Assembly (NCBI GenBank): GCA_000504605.1
Contig: AZHQ01000019.1
Span: 2,469 to 11,605 of the forward strand
Direction of reading: 5' to 3'
Length of the DNA: 9,137 nt
From: an alpha proteobacterium SCGC AAA288-E13
GTDB lineage: Bacteria; Pseudomonadota; Alphaproteobacteria; Pelagibacterales; Pelagibacteraceae
The notes under the pieces were generated by a model that saw nothing but the letters and a program-made list of their open reading frames with translations, was not told the origin of the DNA and searched no databases. Made by a program: the position numbers and the translations under genes. Positions 2,172 to 7,838 of this stretch are shown in pieces; position 1 is the first letter of the stretch; each line of letters starts with the position of its first letter.

Positions 2172-2196
2172 TTTAAAACGAATGTTTAATTATTGA

Positions 2197-3198
2197 TTAT
2201 AACCACTTTGGGTAAGGAAGTCCTTTCTCAGTTAAAAATTTCTTATTAAATATCTTGCTACGATATATATCAGATTTATCACACAGAATTGTTACAATGG
2301 TATGATTGGGACCTAAATCTTTTGCTAATTTTATAGCACCAGCAACATTAATTCCTGTGCTTGTGCCTAAACTTAAACCTTCTTTTTCCAGCAATTCAAA
2401 TAAGACTGTTAATGCATCATGATCATTAATGGAATATGCATCATCAATTGGAGCTTGTTCGAAATTTTTAGTCACACGACTAGAGCCTATACCTTCAGTA
2501 ATTGATTTTCCTTCTATTTTTAATTCACCATGTTTGATGTGATTATAAAGAGCAGATCCTTTTGGATCCGATAAGACAATTTTAATATTTTTATTTTTTT
2601 CCTTAAGAGCTTTACCCACACCAGCGATAGTTCCTCCCGTTCCCGAGGCACAAATAAAAGCATTAACTTTACCTTCTGTTTGATCCCAAATCTCTGGGCC
2701 TGTTGTTTCGTAATGACCTTTATAATTAGCAATATTATCGAATTGATTTGCCCAAAATACACCTTGTGAATGTTCCTTTTTTAAATCTTCTGCAAGTTTA
2801 CCTGAATACTTTACATAATTATTTGGATCCTTATAAGGTTTTGCCGGAACTAAACGTAAGTCGGCACCAATAGACTTGAGAATATCTTTTTTTTCTTGAG
2901 TTTGGGTTTCGGGCATTACAATAATAGTTTTGTAACCTCTGGAATTTCCAATTAAACATAATCCAATTCCAGTATTTCCTGCAGTTCCTTCGACAATAGT
3001 TCCTCCTTTGGAGATTAATTTTTTTTCCTCTGCATCTTTGATCAAGGCCCATGCCGCTCTATCTTTAACTGAACCGCCAGGATTTAAAAATTCAGCTTTT
3101 CCATAAATATTACAACCGGTTAATTCTGAAGGACCATTTAATCTAATGAGAGGTGTATTTCCTATGCCATTAACGAAATTATTAAATGTATTTTTCAT
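2197..3198 (-). CDS. cysK: Cysteine synthase A (O-acetylserine sulfhydrylase)
   Basis: This PLP enzyme combines O-acetylserine, made by the CysE encoded just upstream, with sulfide to give cysteine. In the 333-residue sequence, Lys45 in NPGGSVKDR is the PLP Schiff-base lysine, GTAGNTG (71-77) is the substrate-binding loop, and GTGGT (186-190) binds the cofactor phosphate. NQFDN is at 151-155, and TSTG near the C-terminus contacts the pyridine ring. EGTAGNTG with MPETQTQEKKD and PYKDPNNYVKYSG marks the alphaproteobacterial subgroup, which is related to cystathionine beta-synthase-like enzymes. A CysM-type use of thiosulfate cannot be excluded and would suit the neighbouring sulfur cluster. It lies 28 bases after cysE and is surely cotranscribed with it. 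Confidence 0.93.
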   Translation of the reverse strand: MKNTFNNFVNGIGNTPLIRLNGPSELTGCNIYGKAEFLNPGGSVKDRAAWALIKDAEEKKLISKGGTIVEGTAGNTGIGLCLIGNSRGYKTIIVMPETQTQEKKDILKSIGADLRLVPAKPYKDPNNYVKYSGKLAEDLKKEHSQGVFWANQFDNIANYKGHYETTGPEIWDQTEGKVNAFICASGTGGTIAGVGKALKEKNKNIKIVLSDPKGSALYNHIKHGELKIEGKSITEGIGSSRVTKNFEQAPIDDAYSINDHDALTVLFELLEKEGLSLGTSTGINVAGAIKLAKDLGPNHTIVTILCDKSDIYRSKIFNKKFLTEKGLPYPKWL

Positions 3199-3226
3199 TT
3201 AGCTATGAACCATAAATTTTATATCC

Positions 3227-3820
3227 TTAACAAGCAGGAATATCATCTTCATCAATAATCCCATAGGGTTTGAATGAAGTATCTTTAATCTCAGGTTTAG
3301 TTCTAATATTTTTTGCAGGAATCCCAACCATGATAGCGTGCTCTGGTACATCACGTGTGACCACAGCATTTGCACCAATTTTAGCAAATTCTCCAACTAT
3401 GATTGGTCCTAAAACTTGCGCTCCAGATCCCACCACAACATTATTTTTTAAGGTTGGATGACGTTTAGTTCCTCTTTGTCCGTCTGAATTAATACTGGGT
3501 GATATCCCTCCAAGAGTAACAGAGTGATAAAGTGTTACATTATCTTCAATTTCGGAAGTTTCTCCAATTACTACACCCATTCCATGATCAATAAAAAAGT
3601 TTTTTCCAATCTTTGCCGCCGGATGTATTTCTATTCCAGTTAAAAATCTCGAAGATTGGGAAACAATTCTTGCAATTAAAGTAAGTCCGGCTTTAGAAAA
3701 AAAATTTGCTATTCGATGAAAAAAAATTGCTTTTACCCCAGGATAAGTTAGGATAATACCTAGCTTAGATTTGGCCGCAGGATCTCGATCCATAATAGAT
3801 TTTATATACTCGTTCATCAT
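3227..3820 (-). CDS. cysE: Serine O-acetyltransferase
   Basis: This enzyme makes O-acetylserine from serine and acetyl-CoA, the committed step of cysteine synthesis. At 197 residues it is the short (EpsC-like) form. An alpha-helical N-terminus (1-60) is followed by left-handed beta-helix hexapeptide repeats (about 62-170). Catalytic features are EIHPAAKIG (64-72, acidic residue) and [12 protein letters not shown] (77-88, with His79). SVTLGG is at 100-105 and KRHP at 119-122. The C-terminus ends IPAC. An Ile at the very end is commonly used by CysE to dock into CysK; here the last residues are Ile-Pro-Ala-Cys, so docking is uncertain. The start ATG at 3820 overlaps the regulator's stop (ATGA), with a second ATG at 3817. 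Either start implies translational coupling. Confidence 0.92.
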
Positions 3821-4275
3821 ATGTAATGTAACGGAAGATTGCTGGTTTGTTTAAGTTCTTCCATGGAAAAACTTGTTGTAACATCCGATAGATCTATTTT
3901 ATCGGTCAGTTTTTTATAAAACTCATCAAATTTATCTATACTTGGAACCAATACTTTTAAGAGATAATCAGTTGTTCCACTTAATCGATAAAATTCTACC
4001 ACCTCATCCATTTCTTTAACGCCTTCTATAAATTTTTTTGACCATGTCATATTATGTTGACTTGTTCTGATTTGAACAAAAGCCACAGTAGAAAGATTTA
4101 TTTTCGCTCGGTCAATAACGGCTACTTTTTTTTTAATGTATCCTTGCTTGTAAAGTTTATTTATTCTTAGCCAGCAAGGCGTTGATGATAAATTCACCTT
4201 TTTTGACAATTCGGCAACGGGTATGTCAGCATTGGTTTGTAATAGTGATAAAATTTTCTTATCTATATCATCCAT
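3817..4275 (-). CDS. Lrp/AsnC-family regulator, DecR/CuyR-like, probable cysteine-responsive
   Basis: This 152-residue DNA-binding protein has an N-terminal winged helix-turn-helix (about 1-60, with [13 protein letters not shown] and [13 protein letters not shown]) and a C-terminal RAM ligand-binding domain (about 65-145). From memory of E. coli DecR (YbaO), the shared stretches are striking: STPCW.R...[31 protein letters not shown] and an end like T.LP. DecR/CuyR regulators respond to cysteine and control its degradation. Here the gene instead heads a cysE-cysK operon, so it may adjust synthesis to cysteine level. The stop codon overlaps the cysE start. A predicted promoter with a dyad across its -35 box lies directly upstream, which suggests autoregulation. 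The family is sure; the effector is inferred. Confidence 0.88.
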
Positions 4276-4291
4276 AATGTTTTATTCTAGA

Positions 4292-4320
4292 ATTATATAA
4301 TAATATAGATTTTTTATCTA
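4292..4320 (-). promoter_or_regulatory. Predicted promoter of the DecR-like regulator-cysE-cysK operon
   Basis: On the minus strand, TAGATA (4320-4315, four of six matches to the -35 consensus) is followed by 17 bases and a perfect TATAAT (4297-4292). Transcription would begin near 4285, leaving only about 10 bases before the ATG. That agrees with the absence of a Shine-Dalgarno sequence there. AT-rich DNA makes chance matches common. Confidence 0.45.
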
Positions 4321-4322
4321 TA
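4304..4322. promoter_or_regulatory. Candidate operator: 19-bp perfect dyad TATAGAT-N5-ATCTATA
   Basis: Two 7-base arms (4304-4310 and 4316-4322) are perfect inverted repeats separated by TTTTT. Lrp/AsnC proteins bind as dimers to short AT-rich palindromes of similar size. The right arm covers the predicted -35 box of the regulator's own promoter, the expected position for autorepression. It could also influence the divergent plus-strand promoter, whose -35 box is about 46 bases away. This is inferred from symmetry and position only. Confidence 0.4.
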
Positions 4323-4367
4323 AAATAGCAATATTTTGATAAATTTTAACTTATTTTCCTAAAAAAT

Positions 4368-4396
4368 TTTACTTTATTAGAATTATATCCTACAAA
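4368..4396 (+). promoter_or_regulatory. Weak predicted promoter for the sulfur-uptake leader
   Basis: TTTACT (4368-4373) and TACAAA (4391-4396) each match four of six consensus bases with a 17-base spacer. This would start RNA near 4403, just before the first possible leader helix at 4408. The agreement with where structure begins is the main support. Confidence 0.3.
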
Positions 4397-4402
4397 TCTC
4401 GT

Positions 4403-4494
4403 CGAATAGTGCTGAGTTGCATCAGATTGCGGGCGCTTTAAAAATTCCTGCTAAAGCGATTTATAACCACCGCTTCAGCAGGTGGTTTTTTTTT
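4403..4494 (+). promoter_or_regulatory. Candidate transcription attenuator or riboswitch leader of the sulfur-uptake operon
   Basis: The stretch is GC-richer than its surroundings and can form competing helices. Hairpin A pairs CGCTTTA (4434-4440) with TAAAGCG (4452-4458). Hairpin B pairs CCTGCTAAAGCG (4447-4458) with CGCTTCAGCAGG (4471-4482), 11 of 12 positions paired, and excludes both A and the terminator. CCTGC in the loop of A (4447-4451) can also pair with GCAGG (4478-4482) while A stays formed, giving an H-type pseudoknot that would block the terminator. Upstream, AGTGC (4408-4412) can pair with GCGCT (4433-4437), and CTGA (4412-4415) with TCAG (4422-4425). The downstream gene handles sulfur, so a sulfur metabolite (cysteine, SAM or a relative) is a reasonable ligand guess. 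A free small RNA ending at the terminator is the alternative. Confidence 0.5.
4465..4494 (+). terminator. Intrinsic terminator inside the leader, 84 bases before the rhodanese gene
   Basis: AACCACC (4465-4471) pairs with GGTGGTT (4481-4487). The stem continues inward as GC/GC around a TTCA loop with one bulged A, and is followed by an unbroken T run to 4494. It is a textbook rho-independent terminator facing the operon it precedes, which implies attenuation or the end of a separate small RNA. Its 3' arm is shared with the competing helix at 4447-4482. Confidence 0.8.
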
Positions 4495-4538
4495 GGAAAT
4501 CATTTTTTCATCAAAGAACTGGGTAATTTAACTGTATT

Positions 4539-4573
4539 GTGCACCCGACATATGTCGAAGCACTAAAAAGGAG
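4539..4573 (+). promoter_or_regulatory. Hairpin with 12-bp palindrome next to the Shine-Dalgarno of the rhodanese gene
   Basis: CGACATATGTCG (4546-4557) is a perfect 12-base palindrome. Outside it, GTGC (4539-4542) pairs with GCAC (4560-4563) across a small internal loop. The stem ends five bases before AAGGAG (4568-4573), the only strong Shine-Dalgarno sequence in the window, five bases from the ATG at 4579. It may affect ribosome access or mRNA stability, or be a DNA site for a dimeric protein. Confidence 0.4.
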
Positions 4574-4578
4574 AAAAA

Positions 4579-5484
4579 ATGAAAAAAATACTAGTAACGA
4601 TCTTTTTCTTTATTATTTTTAGTTTTACTGCTTTTGCAGCAGAACCATTAGTAGATACAAAATGGTTGAATGATAATTTAAAAAATAAGGAAGTTTTTGT
4701 TTTGGATATTCGAAACAAAATCGATAAAGGTTCTTATGAAACGTTCACACAAGGTCATATTCCAGGTTCCATATATTCGGATTATCTTCAAGATGGTTGG
4801 AGAACAGAAGTTGATGGAATTATCGGACAATTGCCACCCGTTAAAGATCTTGAACTGTTAATCGGTAGTCTTGGAATTGGTAATAAAAATCATGTAATCG
4901 TCGTTTACGGCGGAGTTAGTTCAAGTGATTTTGGCAGTGCCTCAAGAGTCTATTGGACGTTTAAAACTTTGGGCCATGACGAAGTATCCATCTTAAATGG
5001 TGGTTATAAAGCTTGGGAGTCTTCAGGTTTTAAAATTGAAACTGGCGAACATAATCCAAAACTCGCAAAGTTTATAGCTAACTATACTAACAAGTATTAT
5101 GCTAATGCTGACGACGTTATTAAAGTTATCGAGAATACTAACATTGGCTTGATTGATGCCAGACCTGCTGCTTTCTTTGTTGGAGAAAAGAAAAAGAAGC
5201 AAGCTTTAAGAGCAGGAAGAATTAAAAATTCTTTTAACTTAGAACAACAAACTTTGGTTAACGAAGATGGTACCTTTAAATCGGTAGAGGAAATTAAGAT
5301 ACTAATTTCACAAGCGGGCTTGAATGGTAAAGACGGCTACATATCCTACTGTAACACAGGGCACTGGGCTTCCATACCATGGTTTGCTTTAAGTGAAATA
5401 GCTAAAGAACCAAATGTTAAGAACTACGACGGCTCTATGGTCGATTGGACATTTGATCCTAATAGAGAAGTTATAACAGGCTAA
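4579..5484 (+). CDS. Exported two-domain rhodanese, thiosulfate or 3-mercaptopyruvate sulfurtransferase
   Basis: This 301-residue sulfurtransferase moves sulfane sulfur from a donor such as thiosulfate to an acceptor through a persulfide on cysteine. Residues 1-20 are a signal peptide (MKK, hydrophobic core, AFA then AEP), so it should act in the periplasm. The N-terminal rhodanese domain (about 22-155; LDIRN, GHIPGS, ASRVYWTFKTLGH, LNGGYKAW) lacks a cysteine at the loop after VIVVY and is inactive, as is usual. The C-terminal domain (about 172-298) carries the active loop YCNTGHWAS with Cys258, then YDGSMVDW. This loop differs from the CG[ST]GVTA of mercaptopyruvate enzymes, so thiosulfate is at least as likely a substrate. 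It is the first gene of the sulfur-uptake cluster, preceded by a strong AAGGAG and the structured leader. Confidence 0.88.
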   Translation: MKKILVTIFFFIIFSFTAFAAEPLVDTKWLNDNLKNKEVFVLDIRNKIDKGSYETFTQGHIPGSIYSDYLQDGWRTEVDGIIGQLPPVKDLELLIGSLGIGNKNHVIVVYGGVSSSDFGSASRVYWTFKTLGHDEVSILNGGYKAWESSGFKIETGEHNPKLAKFIANYTNKYYANADDVIKVIENTNIGLIDARPAAFFVGEKKKKQALRAGRIKNSFNLEQQTLVNEDGTFKSVEEIKILISQAGLNGKDGYISYCNTGHWASIPWFALSEIAKEPNVKNYDGSMVDWTFDPNREVITG

Positions 5485-5503
5485 TTTGAGAAATTAGCTA
5501 TAG

Positions 5504-5566
5504 TCAGAAAAAGGGGGAGGACGTATTCCTCGTTATTTTATTAAGTTTTGCCTCCTCCTTTTCTGA
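5504..5566 (+). repeat. Long imperfect inverted repeat between the rhodanese and YeeE genes
   Basis: TCAGAAAAAGGGGGAGG (5504-5520) pairs with CCTCCTCCTTTTCTGA (5551-5566) along all 16 positions of the 3' arm, with one G-T wobble and one bulged A. It encloses a 30-base loop. No U tract follows it, so it is not a normal intrinsic terminator. It may protect or process the mRNA so that the rhodanese message outlasts or outnumbers the transporter part. The 3' arm resembles the anti-Shine-Dalgarno CCTCCTTT of 16S rRNA. It fills most of the 109-base gap. Confidence 0.6.
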
Positions 5567-5593
5567 TCTAAATAAATCATATAACTTTTCAAT

Positions 5594-6760
5594 ATGATAC
5601 AAACAAAAAAAACTGATTTTTTCGTACTTTCATTTGGTTTAGTCAGTTCGACTTTTTTAGTATATTTTTTCAAACAGATAATTAACTTCCAACATTCTTT
5701 GATATTTCTAATAGGTCTGTTGTTGGGACTTACTTTATATCACGCTTCGTTTGGATTTACTGGTGGATGGAGAAACTTTATAGAACGATCTGATAGCAGT
5801 GCCCTTAGAGCACAATTTTTAATGTTGGCATTTGCAATTCTCTTATTCTCCGGATTTGTAAATTCAAAAAGTATATTCTATGGCAATCCAATTATAGGAT
5901 CTATAGCTCCCACAAATGTTTCTGTAATTATAGGTTCGTTTATTTTTGGTTTTGCTATGCAACTTGCAGGAGGATGCGGTTCTGGCACTCTGTTTACCTT
6001 GGGCGGGGGTAATACAAAAATGTTTATAACTCTAATTTTCTTTATAGTTGGTTCATTGGTTGGAACTTATAATTTTACATTTTGGCTAGATTTACCTTCT
6101 TTGGGAAACATATCTTTACTCGAAAAATTTGGAATTATTAATACAGTGTTAATACAAATTATATTTATTGGTCTTTTATACATACTGTGTTCTTTTATTG
6201 ATAAAAAAAAAAATACAGTGATTAACCACAGTGATATTTTTATATCCAATGGTTTTAATGCAATCAAAGGCCCTTGGCCTTTATTTCTTGGAGCGATTCT
6301 TTTAGCAATACTGAATTTCTTAATGCTAAACATTGCTGGTCACCCATGGTCTGTAACCTTTGCTTTTGGTTTATGGGGAGCTAAAATTGCCGACTTTATT
6401 GGAATTGATGTTGCAAGTTGGACTTTCTGGACTTTTGAGTATCCTAAAATTGCTCTTAAAAATAGTATTTTTGCTGATCATACCTCAATATCCAACATTG
6501 GAATTATTTTAGGCGCTTTAATCGCCTCGAGTCTCGTGGGATCATTTAGTAAAAAAACTAAGCTTAATTATAAAATCGTATTAGCTGCAATTATAGGAGG
6601 TTTTTTAATGGGTTTTGGAGCTCGTCTTGCTTTTGGTTGCAACATTGGAGCTTTATTCAGTGGTATTGCCTCTGGCAGTTTACATGGTTGGACTTGGTTT
6701 TTGTTTGCTTTCATTGGAGCCTATTTTGGAGTTAAAGCAAGAAGGTGGTTTTATTCATGA
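5594..6760 (+). CDS. Long YeeE/YedE-family (TsuA-like) sulfur-compound transporter
   Basis: This 388-residue inner-membrane protein is mostly hydrophobic helices. It belongs to the YeeE/YedE family, in which TsuA imports thiosulfate by passing it along conserved cysteines. Two inverted-repeat halves can be seen. The first has FGFTGGWRNF (53-62) and AMQLAGGCGSGTLFTLGGG (121-139, Cys128). The second has GHPWSVTFAFGLWG (249-262) and GARLAFGCNIGALFSGIASG (342-361, Cys349). The first-half FGFTGGWR site lacks the extra cysteine present in TsuA, so one relay position is missing or replaced. A charged loop near 203-212 joins the halves. It follows the rhodanese gene and overlaps the next small gene by four bases. 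No Shine-Dalgarno sequence is visible. The family is sure; thiosulfate as cargo is inferred. Confidence 0.88.
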   Translation: MIQTKKTDFFVLSFGLVSSTFLVYFFKQIINFQHSLIFLIGLLLGLTLYHASFGFTGGWRNFIERSDSSALRAQFLMLAFAILLFSGFVNSKSIFYGNPIIGSIAPTNVSVIIGSFIFGFAMQLAGGCGSGTLFTLGGGNTKMFITLIFFIVGSLVGTYNFTFWLDLPSLGNISLLEKFGIINTVLIQIIFIGLLYILCSFIDKKKNTVINHSDIFISNGFNAIKGPWPLFLGAILLAILNFLMLNIAGHPWSVTFAFGLWGAKIADFIGIDVASWTFWTFEYPKIALKNSIFADHTSISNIGIILGALIASSLVGSFSKKTKLNYKIVLAAIIGGFLMGFGARLAFGCNIGALFSGIASGSLHGWTWFLFAFIGAYFGVKARRWFYS

Positions 6761-6933
6761 AATTGATAATTTTTGTAGTAGTTTTTTGTTTTTTTATAGG
6801 ACTGGGTTACATTGACCACTCGCGATATGGTATAGTTTATAATCCGCTTGAGAAGCTTAAATCAGATTTATTAGAAGATAATGATAAAAAACAATTATTA
6901 AGTGCTCCATGCTCGGAATTTGGTGGTGGTTAA
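6757..6933 (+). CDS. 58-residue membrane-anchored peptide, unknown function
   Basis: I do not recognise this protein. It has one hydrophobic N-terminal segment (residues 2-18) with a lysine before it, so the rest should face the periplasm. A polar, charged middle (20-48) is followed by an ending of SAPCSEFGGG with a single downstream cysteine (Cys52) and three terminal glycines. The ATG at 6757 overlaps the transporter stop (ATGA), which implies coupled translation and argues for a real gene. A GTG at 6745 in the same frame is less likely. Set among sulfur transporters, it could be an accessory subunit or a small sulfur carrier, but that is only inference from position and the lone cysteine. 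Confidence 0.6.
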   Translation: MKLIIFVVVFCFFIGLGYIDHSRYGIVYNPLEKLKSDLLEDNDKKQLLSAPCSEFGGG

Positions 6934-6982
6934 ATTATGATCTTCCACCCCGTACTTTGTTGCTTTGTTGAACAAAATTAAT

Positions 6983-7201
6983 ATGAATATTGTAAATTTT
7001 ACACCGCAATCTGCTTTTATAGGAGGAATAATAATTGGCTTTGCTGTAATAGTATTTTTTATTGGAAACGGTCGACTAGCGGGAATTAGCGGTATTGTAA
7101 ATGCTACTCTTGTTTCAAAACAAAACAGAACTGACAATTTTTTATTTATAATCGGGTTAGTTTTAGGACCCATTTTTTATGCATTTTTTTGCAAAAATTG
7201 A
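6983..7201 (+). CDS. Half-length YeeE/YedE transporter subunit A, N-terminal part of a frameshifted gene
   Basis: This is the first part of a short YeeE/YedE protein. [18 protein letters not shown] (5-22) and [12 protein letters not shown] (28-39) are typical of the N-terminal half of these roughly 140-residue membrane proteins. The frame ends within a few codons after a T7 run (7184-7190). Removing one T joins it to the ORF at 7179-7397 and gives a 137-residue protein, the normal family length. I chose the ATG at 6983; an in-frame TTG at 6965 adds only six residues. As written it lacks the conserved cysteine motif. It lies 49 bases after the small-peptide gene, in the same transcription unit. 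Confidence 0.75.
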
Positions 7202-7397
7202 TATTCCTTTTTTAATAACGTCGTCGCTACCAATAATTATTACGGCTGGCTTTTTAGTTGGCGTAGGAACAAAAATTGGAAGAGGTTGTACAAGTGGCCA
7301 TGGGATTTGTGGTATTAGTCTTTTGTCGCCAAGATCTATTGTAGCAACGATCATTTTTATGATTACAGCAATAATAACAGTTAAGTTGATTGGATAA
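7179..7397 (+). CDS. Half-length YeeE/YedE transporter subunit A, C-terminal part of the same frameshifted gene
   Basis: This continues the gene starting at 6983 in the frame reached by dropping one T from 7184-7190. It holds the signature of the family: [18 protein letters not shown] (28-45; cysteines about 102 and 109 in the joined protein) followed by [13 protein letters not shown]. The nominal ATG at 7179 lies inside the preceding coding region and is probably not a genuine start, though a separately translated fragment is possible. In the family this cysteine motif lines the sulfur-compound path. The stop at 7397 is nine bases before the partner gene. Confidence 0.77.
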
Positions 7398-7406
7398 AAA
7401 ACAATA

Positions 7407-7838
7407 ATGTCTAAAATTATCTCTTTAGTCAGTGGAATAATTTTTGGTGTTGGTTTATCCGTTTCTAATATGATCAATCCAGAAAAGGTTCTTGGATTTC
7501 TAGATTTATTTGGTCAATGGGACCCTTCATTAATTTTTGTGATGATGGGCGCAATCATTGTAAGTGCTCCAGTATTTTTTATACTTAGAAATAAAAACAA
7601 ACCTTTATTCGCTGACAATTTTGCTATTCCTACTCTGAAATCTATTGATAAAAATTTAATTATAGGTTCTGGTACGTTTGGCATTGGATGGGGTATGGTT
7701 GGATTTTGTCCGGGTCCAGCAATATCATCTCTTTCATTATTAAATACTTATTCTGTGTTTTTTGTATTATCTATGCTAGGAGGGTTTTTGTTAACTGAAT
7801 TGGTAAATAGAATGATTTTTACAACTAAATTATCTTAA
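7407..7838 (+). CDS. Half-length YeeE/YedE transporter subunit B (DUF6691-type)
   Basis: This 143-residue membrane protein has about four helices and is the usual partner of subunit A. Motifs are [22 protein letters not shown] (13-34), [14 protein letters not shown] (36-49), a polar segment to DKNL (81-84), and [19 protein letters not shown] (87-105) with Cys101. Similar A/B pairs occur in sulfur operons such as PmpAB and those controlled by BigR, beside rhodanese or persulfide-dioxygenase genes. With the long YeeE upstream, the cluster holds two versions of the same transporter design. The gene ends by overlapping purC, on the opposite strand, by 14 bases. Confidence 0.85.

Follow-up and report, generated by a model that had tools for sequence, protein, structure and literature searches.

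A SAM-II/SAM-V tandem leader, probably of the published bi-mechanism type, ahead of a rhodanese/YeeE sulfur-uptake operon in a Pelagibacteraceae genome, with signs of cassette exchange

The window, a stretch of 9,137 nucleotides from the alphaproteobacterium SCGC AAA288-E13 (Pelagibacteraceae), contains a plus-strand operon for a rhodanese, YeeE-type proteins and a DUF6691 membrane protein, preceded by a structured leader (Table 1). Genes for an Lrp/AsnC regulator, a hexapeptide-repeat protein, a PLP enzyme and an Nfu protein are divergent from this operon; by our reading, the hexapeptide-repeat protein is serine acetyltransferase-like and the PLP enzyme cysteine synthase-like. PMC11582611 describes YeeE proteins as importers of thiosulfate or sulfur in other forms, and pairs of short YeeE-like proteins as PmpA/PmpB. 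Since cysteine-type genes adjoin the YeeE genes, feedback of S-adenosylmethionine (SAM) on uptake would make sense.

The short YeeE-like gene is a single frame of 137 aa in loci L050, L085 and L087 and is split in the window, which is either a sequencing error or a real break. Overlapping frames were also found at 20-592 and 585-1121, the first with sub-cut-off hydrolase matches, and a single interrupted gene may account for 20-1121. Between its two YeeE genes, the related island in L050 (9573-11128) carries two extra genes, a small rhodanese-like one and a PLP sulfhydrylase-like one (assigned by eye), which are absent from the corresponding place in the window (about 6933-6974).

Table 1. Features of the leader and the operon in the window (all on the + strand).
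Feature	Position	Strand	Evidence
SAM-II (SAM_alpha, RF00521) match; structural core about 4408-4460	4399..4475	+	Rfam 24.7 bits, 53-row alignment
SAM-II P1, one G-U pair	4408-4412 with 4433-4437	+	98.8% of cells paired, 51 distinct rows
SAM-II P2 (pseudoknot), U4452 bulged	4427-4432 with 4448-4454	+	four core pairs invariant
SAM-II P2a	4421-4423 with 4458-4460	+	covariation above shuffles
Putative antiterminator (competing helix of the sequence-only reading)	4447-4458 with 4471-4482	+	11/12 pairs, -14.7 kcal/mol
Intrinsic terminator; stem 4465-4471/4481-4487 and U tract	4465..4494	+	energy, conservation, consensus scan
SAM-V (RF01826), 3′ end over Shine-Dalgarno GGAG 4570-4573	4512..4576	+	Rfam 62.7 bits
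Rhodanese, two domains; N-terminal signal-like segment (our reading)	4579..5484	+	PF00581, 93.9 bits, 2 stretches
YeeE-type sulfur transporter	5594..6760	+	PF04143, 223.2 bits
Short YeeE-like gene, two overlapping frames (6965-7201, 7179-7397)	6965..7397	+	PF04143 in second frame, 34.9 bits
DUF6691 membrane protein	7407..7838	+	PF20398, 140.7 bits

The sequence-only reading had described the leader as a set of mutually exclusive helices: a hairpin A, a helix competing with it, a pseudoknot and a terminator. The hairpin, the competing helix and the terminator are present and pair as described. Hairpin A (4434-4440/4452-4458) forms 7 of 7 pairs with a computed energy of -4.9 kcal/mol, A4453 opposite C4476 is the sole non-pair of the competing helix, and the terminator stem forms 7 of 7 pairs (-10.9 kcal/mol). 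The pseudoknot pairing also exists and corresponds to the outer half of the competing helix, shown as pairing with the hairpin A loop. A consensus scan of 4270-4640 gave two terminator-like sites, one per strand, against 0.2 expected, and a simple promoter scan of the same interval called four sites, all on the minus strand, and none on the plus strand.

Both 4403-4578 (z -2.64; 3 of 200 shuffles at least as good) and 4400-4494 (z -2.38; 6 of 200) fold better than their shuffled versions. In computed folding of free 4400-4494, the probability of the antiterminator was 0.985 and that of the terminator 0.003. With P1 held and the P2 strands blocked, the terminator rose to 0.999, a switch to be read with the fact that this aptamer-held constraint itself rules out the antiterminator. 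Together with conservation in relatives, these folds support the proposed mutually exclusive terminator and antiterminator ahead of a sulfur operon and, at the level of a model, transcription attenuation.

No known riboswitch class had been recognized in the leader, with SAM-II and SAM-V named among the Rfam models to be searched and a hit to a known class said to remove the novelty. The search matched both, and the novelty of the class is therefore gone. SAM-V was found over model positions 1-66 of 66, above the cut-off of 41 bits (E 1.1e-8), and SAM-II was found upstream of it, under its cut-off of 36 bits (E 0.031 in the window and 7.9e-4 in a 231-nt search). The guess of a sulfur metabolite as the likely ligand is supported, the class matches pointing to SAM. 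What had been overlooked was the 5′ half of SAM-II (P1 and the loop 4413-4432) and the entire second aptamer.

The SAM-V pseudoknot could be read from the sequence, with P1 at 4521-4524/4543-4546 and P2 at 4537-4542/4560-4566, U4564 being bulged. Like marine SAM-V (RF01826), the element combines a full-length Rfam match with a Shine-Dalgarno sequence at its 3′ end, ahead of ATG 4579, and its score lies below the 81.7-86.9 bits reached by 20 of the 30 loci that scored highest. By Rfam, SAM-V was found in 190 of 297 genomes, in 186 of them above the cut-off. The matches in genome G027 sit at the coordinates given in PMC2704228 for bhmT, metY and mmuM of 'Candidatus Pelagibacter ubique' HTCC1062, which is our ground for using the label SAR11. 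The SAM-V pocket is described in PMC6061858.

The SAM-II element has the expected pseudoknot arrangement, with all pairs of P1 (5/5), P2 (6/6, with the bulged U) and P2a (3/3) formed. It shares P1, P2 with the bulged U, the GCUAAA core and P2a with the alphaproteobacterial SAM-II of RF00521 and differs in a short loop, a P2a of three pairs and a score under the Rfam cut-off, which is a screening score and no structural definition. Such a low score is usual for these leaders, and the window falls inside the range of its relatives: among 20 related elements scanned out of 30 fetched, 16 gave a SAM_alpha match (24.6-35.4 bits) and none passed 36, while SAM-V was matched in 14, of which 12 were above its cut-off. 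In the same Rfam search, the published bhmT leader (G027) scored 84.4 bits for SAM-V and 15.5 for SAM-II, which weakens the idea that a low SAM-II score is a sign of decay.

The ligand-pocket bases, which we take to be U10, U11, U12, U44 and GCUAAA, are all found in the window by our alignment, except that G4416 stands where U10 is expected. This position faces the bulged U and is U in the Rfam consensus. Across 53 aligned leaders (alignment column 13) the base takes two forms, being U in 33 leaders and G in the other 20, and G4416 was rejected as an oddity of the window. By our alignment, the bhmT SAM-V of G027 has G at the place corresponding to 4416.

The relatives were collected with a search model made from seven hand-picked leaders, the window among them. 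At E ≤0.001 it had hits in 280 of 297 genomes, many of them weak (about 1e-5). The 53 leaders comprise 30 top hits, 20 hand-picked from the listed hits, the window, L001 and L019, and the conservation across these rows is partly by construction, because the model was built from hand-picked leaders including the window. The structure of the model contained neither P2, P2a, the antiterminator nor hairpin A, and the register of P2a was chosen by eye on the same rows. Structure was tested on 51 distinct rows. P1 shows changes on both sides at two of its five pairs, the two outermost positions of P2 fail to pair in 27 and 16 rows, and 99.2% of the cells of the terminator stem are paired. Jointly, the three have a covariation score above 500 of 500 shuffles, their count of pairs changed on both sides being unremarkable (45/500 shuffles). 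P2a covaries at 0.297 against 0.134 in shuffles (0/500 as high), and 16 of its cells carry changes on both strands; its weak points are an outermost pair that fails in 25 rows and a changed-pair count reached by 259 of 500 shuffles.

The sequence-only reading had proposed covariation in the leaders of related genomes as a check of its helices, and the outcome was divided. The pairing of the terminator is kept, as is that of the antiterminator, with 89.5% of cells paired in relatives against 19-55% for all six slid versions. However, covariation of the antiterminator stayed at shuffle level in the 51 rows (270/500 as high) and does not demonstrate this helix, the case for which comes from energy and conservation. 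Hairpin A did not hold as a conserved helix: 90.8% of its cells are paired, two of its pairs are broken in 12 and 16 of the 51 rows, and no covariation was seen in them. With breaks at several pairs, it was rejected as a regulatory helix; in it, two strands of the aptamer pair in an alternative way.

By eye, the gene next to the 53 leaders is of bhmT type in 23 cases, metF in 13 and metY in 10; it is a rhodanese in two (the window and L001), a peroxiredoxin in two, metE and cysH in one each, and one has no label. A simple motif for the SAM-V P2 core was present within 200 nt in 35 leaders and absent in 18. Thirteen leaders (e.g., L051, L054 and L056) have SAM-II and the same terminator without SAM-V, before metF-type genes (by eye).

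A compact form was observed as well: in 28 of 31 loci (L002-L032), a SAM-II-like core lies 11-22 nt upstream of where the SAM-V model begins, and no terminator motif separates the two. An example is L003:1450-1567, where SAM-II scores 16.0 bits by Rfam, and equivalents were seen in L003-L032; the seven next genes checked resemble metY (by eye). This form may be a distinct arrangement, because in the first 120 tandems of PMC9481103, SAM-II is said always to precede a terminator.

The window has the order SAM-II, intrinsic terminator and SAM-V over the ribosome site. PMC9481103 describes this order as a bi-mechanism tandem with 149 examples, and the bhmT leader is listed as SAM-II/SAM-V in PMC2704228. 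The window and the bhmT tandem share the order SAM-II, terminator, SAM-V and start codon, the SAM-II/terminator parts align end to end, and in both the GCUAAAG strand overlaps the terminator loop. Unlike the bhmT tandem, the window has G for U at 4416 and precedes a rhodanese/YeeE sulfur-uptake operon and no methionine enzyme. The regulatory leader is real, well formed and of a kind already known, and we consider it probable that it belongs to the published SAM-II/SAM-V bi-mechanism tandem, with a modelled two-level control by SAM.

Based on this assignment, we suggest the following scheme. At low SAM, the SAM-II 3′ strand 4447-4458 would pair with the terminator loop and arm (4471-4482); this pairing would block the terminator, and the operon would be transcribed. 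With enough SAM, SAM-II would close through P1, P2 and P2a and sequester the strand 4447-4458, so that the terminator could form and transcription would stop in the U tract near 4494. In transcripts that read through, the SAM-bound SAM-V pseudoknot would cover the Shine-Dalgarno sequence of the rhodanese gene. In this way, the uptake of sulfur for cysteine and methionine synthesis would be subject to end-product repression at two levels. We infer SAM binding, termination and translation control in the window RNA, as well as the sulfur species transported by the operon.

Several observations speak against the tandem reading, among them the sub-cut-off SAM-II score, G4416 in place of the consensus U, the poorly kept outer pairs of P2, the shuffle-level covariation of the antiterminator and the lack of a plus-strand promoter call in the simple scan. 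In addition, PMC11508383 reports that in full-length bhmT RNA the linker stops SAM-II from responding to SAM. The score, the G opposite the bulged U and this linker report would also fit a leader in which SAM-V is the only active element, while in the full-length RNA SAM-II would no longer respond to its ligand and the hairpin would serve as a fixed partial terminator. We regard this as unlikely, since P1, the P2 core and the bulged U are kept in the 53 relatives, the G recurring in 20 of these, and P2a covaries; moreover, PMC5069961 reports a KD of 1.2 uM for SAM binding by the bhmT SAM-II, which scores lower. Much less probable still is a novel class of riboswitch that binds a different sulfur compound. 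The sulfur-uptake operon downstream and the sub-cut-off SAM-II score could be quoted in its favor, but SAM-V lies above its cut-off immediately downstream, the homologous leaders precede methionine-pathway genes, and bhmT is a published SAM-II/SAM-V case; the Rfam matches and the relatives led us to reject it.

The rhodanese was found in nine of 297 genomes at E ≤1e-40, and among these a SAM riboswitch lies directly upstream only in L001 at the sensitivity used, the contig of G024 offering only 152 bases ahead of the gene. In two other rhodanese genomes, SAM-II was seen downstream of the rhodanese.

L001, from the single cell SCGC AAA288-G21, was the sole relative locus found by the genome scan. 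It shares with the window a block covering 2183-6933 (89.7% identity) and 6974-7829 (89.3%), and beyond this block the 15 kb compared gave no further match. One window protein, PurC-like by our reading, is 78% identical in the L001 genome and was not found in three other genomes (1/4 overall). Identity to L001 is 93.2% in the upstream spacer, 79.1% from SAM-II to the U tract, 85.7% with 20 gapped columns in the linker and SAM-V, and 96.6% (DNA) in the rhodanese gene, which makes the riboswitch stretch the part of the block most unlike its neighbours. The YeeE gene is divergent too (69-83% per 100 nt from 5901 to 6900), so the block is not uniform.

The cassette 4407-4577 is 91.3% identical over 173 nt to the bhmT leader L059 of another genome. 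Within 4401-4575, there are 40 sites where the window sides with L059 and differs from L001, and 5 where it sides with L001 and differs from L059; the counts in the flanks only mark where homology starts, because L059 leads another gene and is non-homologous outside the cassette. In a tree that left out 14 of the 53 rows (metF and cysH types; gene labels by eye), the L001 cassette grouped with L085 and L087, leaders of peroxiredoxin-YeeE operons (support 100/98), and the window grouped with L059 (81/89, from a bootstrap that had not settled). An Rfam search of 33 kb at E ≤0.5 did not pick up the SAM-II part of L001. In L001 (4925-5000), L085 and L087, the SAM-V loop before the P2 strand is shortened, the L085 and L087 copies lying just 3′ of their SAM-II matches; these shortened elements may lack activity, or they may represent a variant that binds differently.

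Since the cassette is nearer to a bhmT leader (91%) than to its orthologue (79% and 86%) in spite of flanks at 93-97%, an exchange of the whole cassette is suggested. It is the simplest reading of these sequences and is not proven. We lean towards SAM-II/SAM-V leaders being exchangeable cassettes, of which a complete bhmT-type one, joined close to where P1 begins and immediately ahead of the start codon, would have replaced the resident leader of the rhodanese/YeeE sulfur-uptake island. As the resident type (L001, L085, L087) has the shortened SAM-V loop, such a swap would bring full two-level SAM control. A less probable, though not negligible, explanation is that nothing was exchanged and that the orthologous L001 leader evolved fast after loss of function. 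The single orthologous locus, the modest and unsettled support for the window with L059, and the shortened SAM-V of L001, at 34.3 bits under the cut-off, are in line with fast evolution. On the other hand, the L001 cassette groups with leaders of another operon, all three of these share the shortened SAM-V, and 40 sites against 5 place the window with L059.

Two aspects are possibly new: a SAM tandem on a rhodanese/YeeE sulfur-uptake operon, and a cassette closer to the bhmT leader of another genome than to the orthologous leader. For the former, no report of a SAM riboswitch before rhodanese/YeeE was found in the open-licence literature, which does not establish its absence from print.

It should be noted that the Rfam SAM-II cut-off misses such elements (0/20 pass), so leaders of this kind will go on seeming novel. 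Should the cassette exchange be confirmed, it would stand as a clear-cut example of a regulatory module passing from one leader to another. For HTCC1062, PMC5069961 reports that sulfur acquisition is constitutive and that SAM riboswitches control methionine enzymes. As against this constitutive acquisition, the leader in the window suggests that the sulfur-uptake operon is under SAM control in its group.
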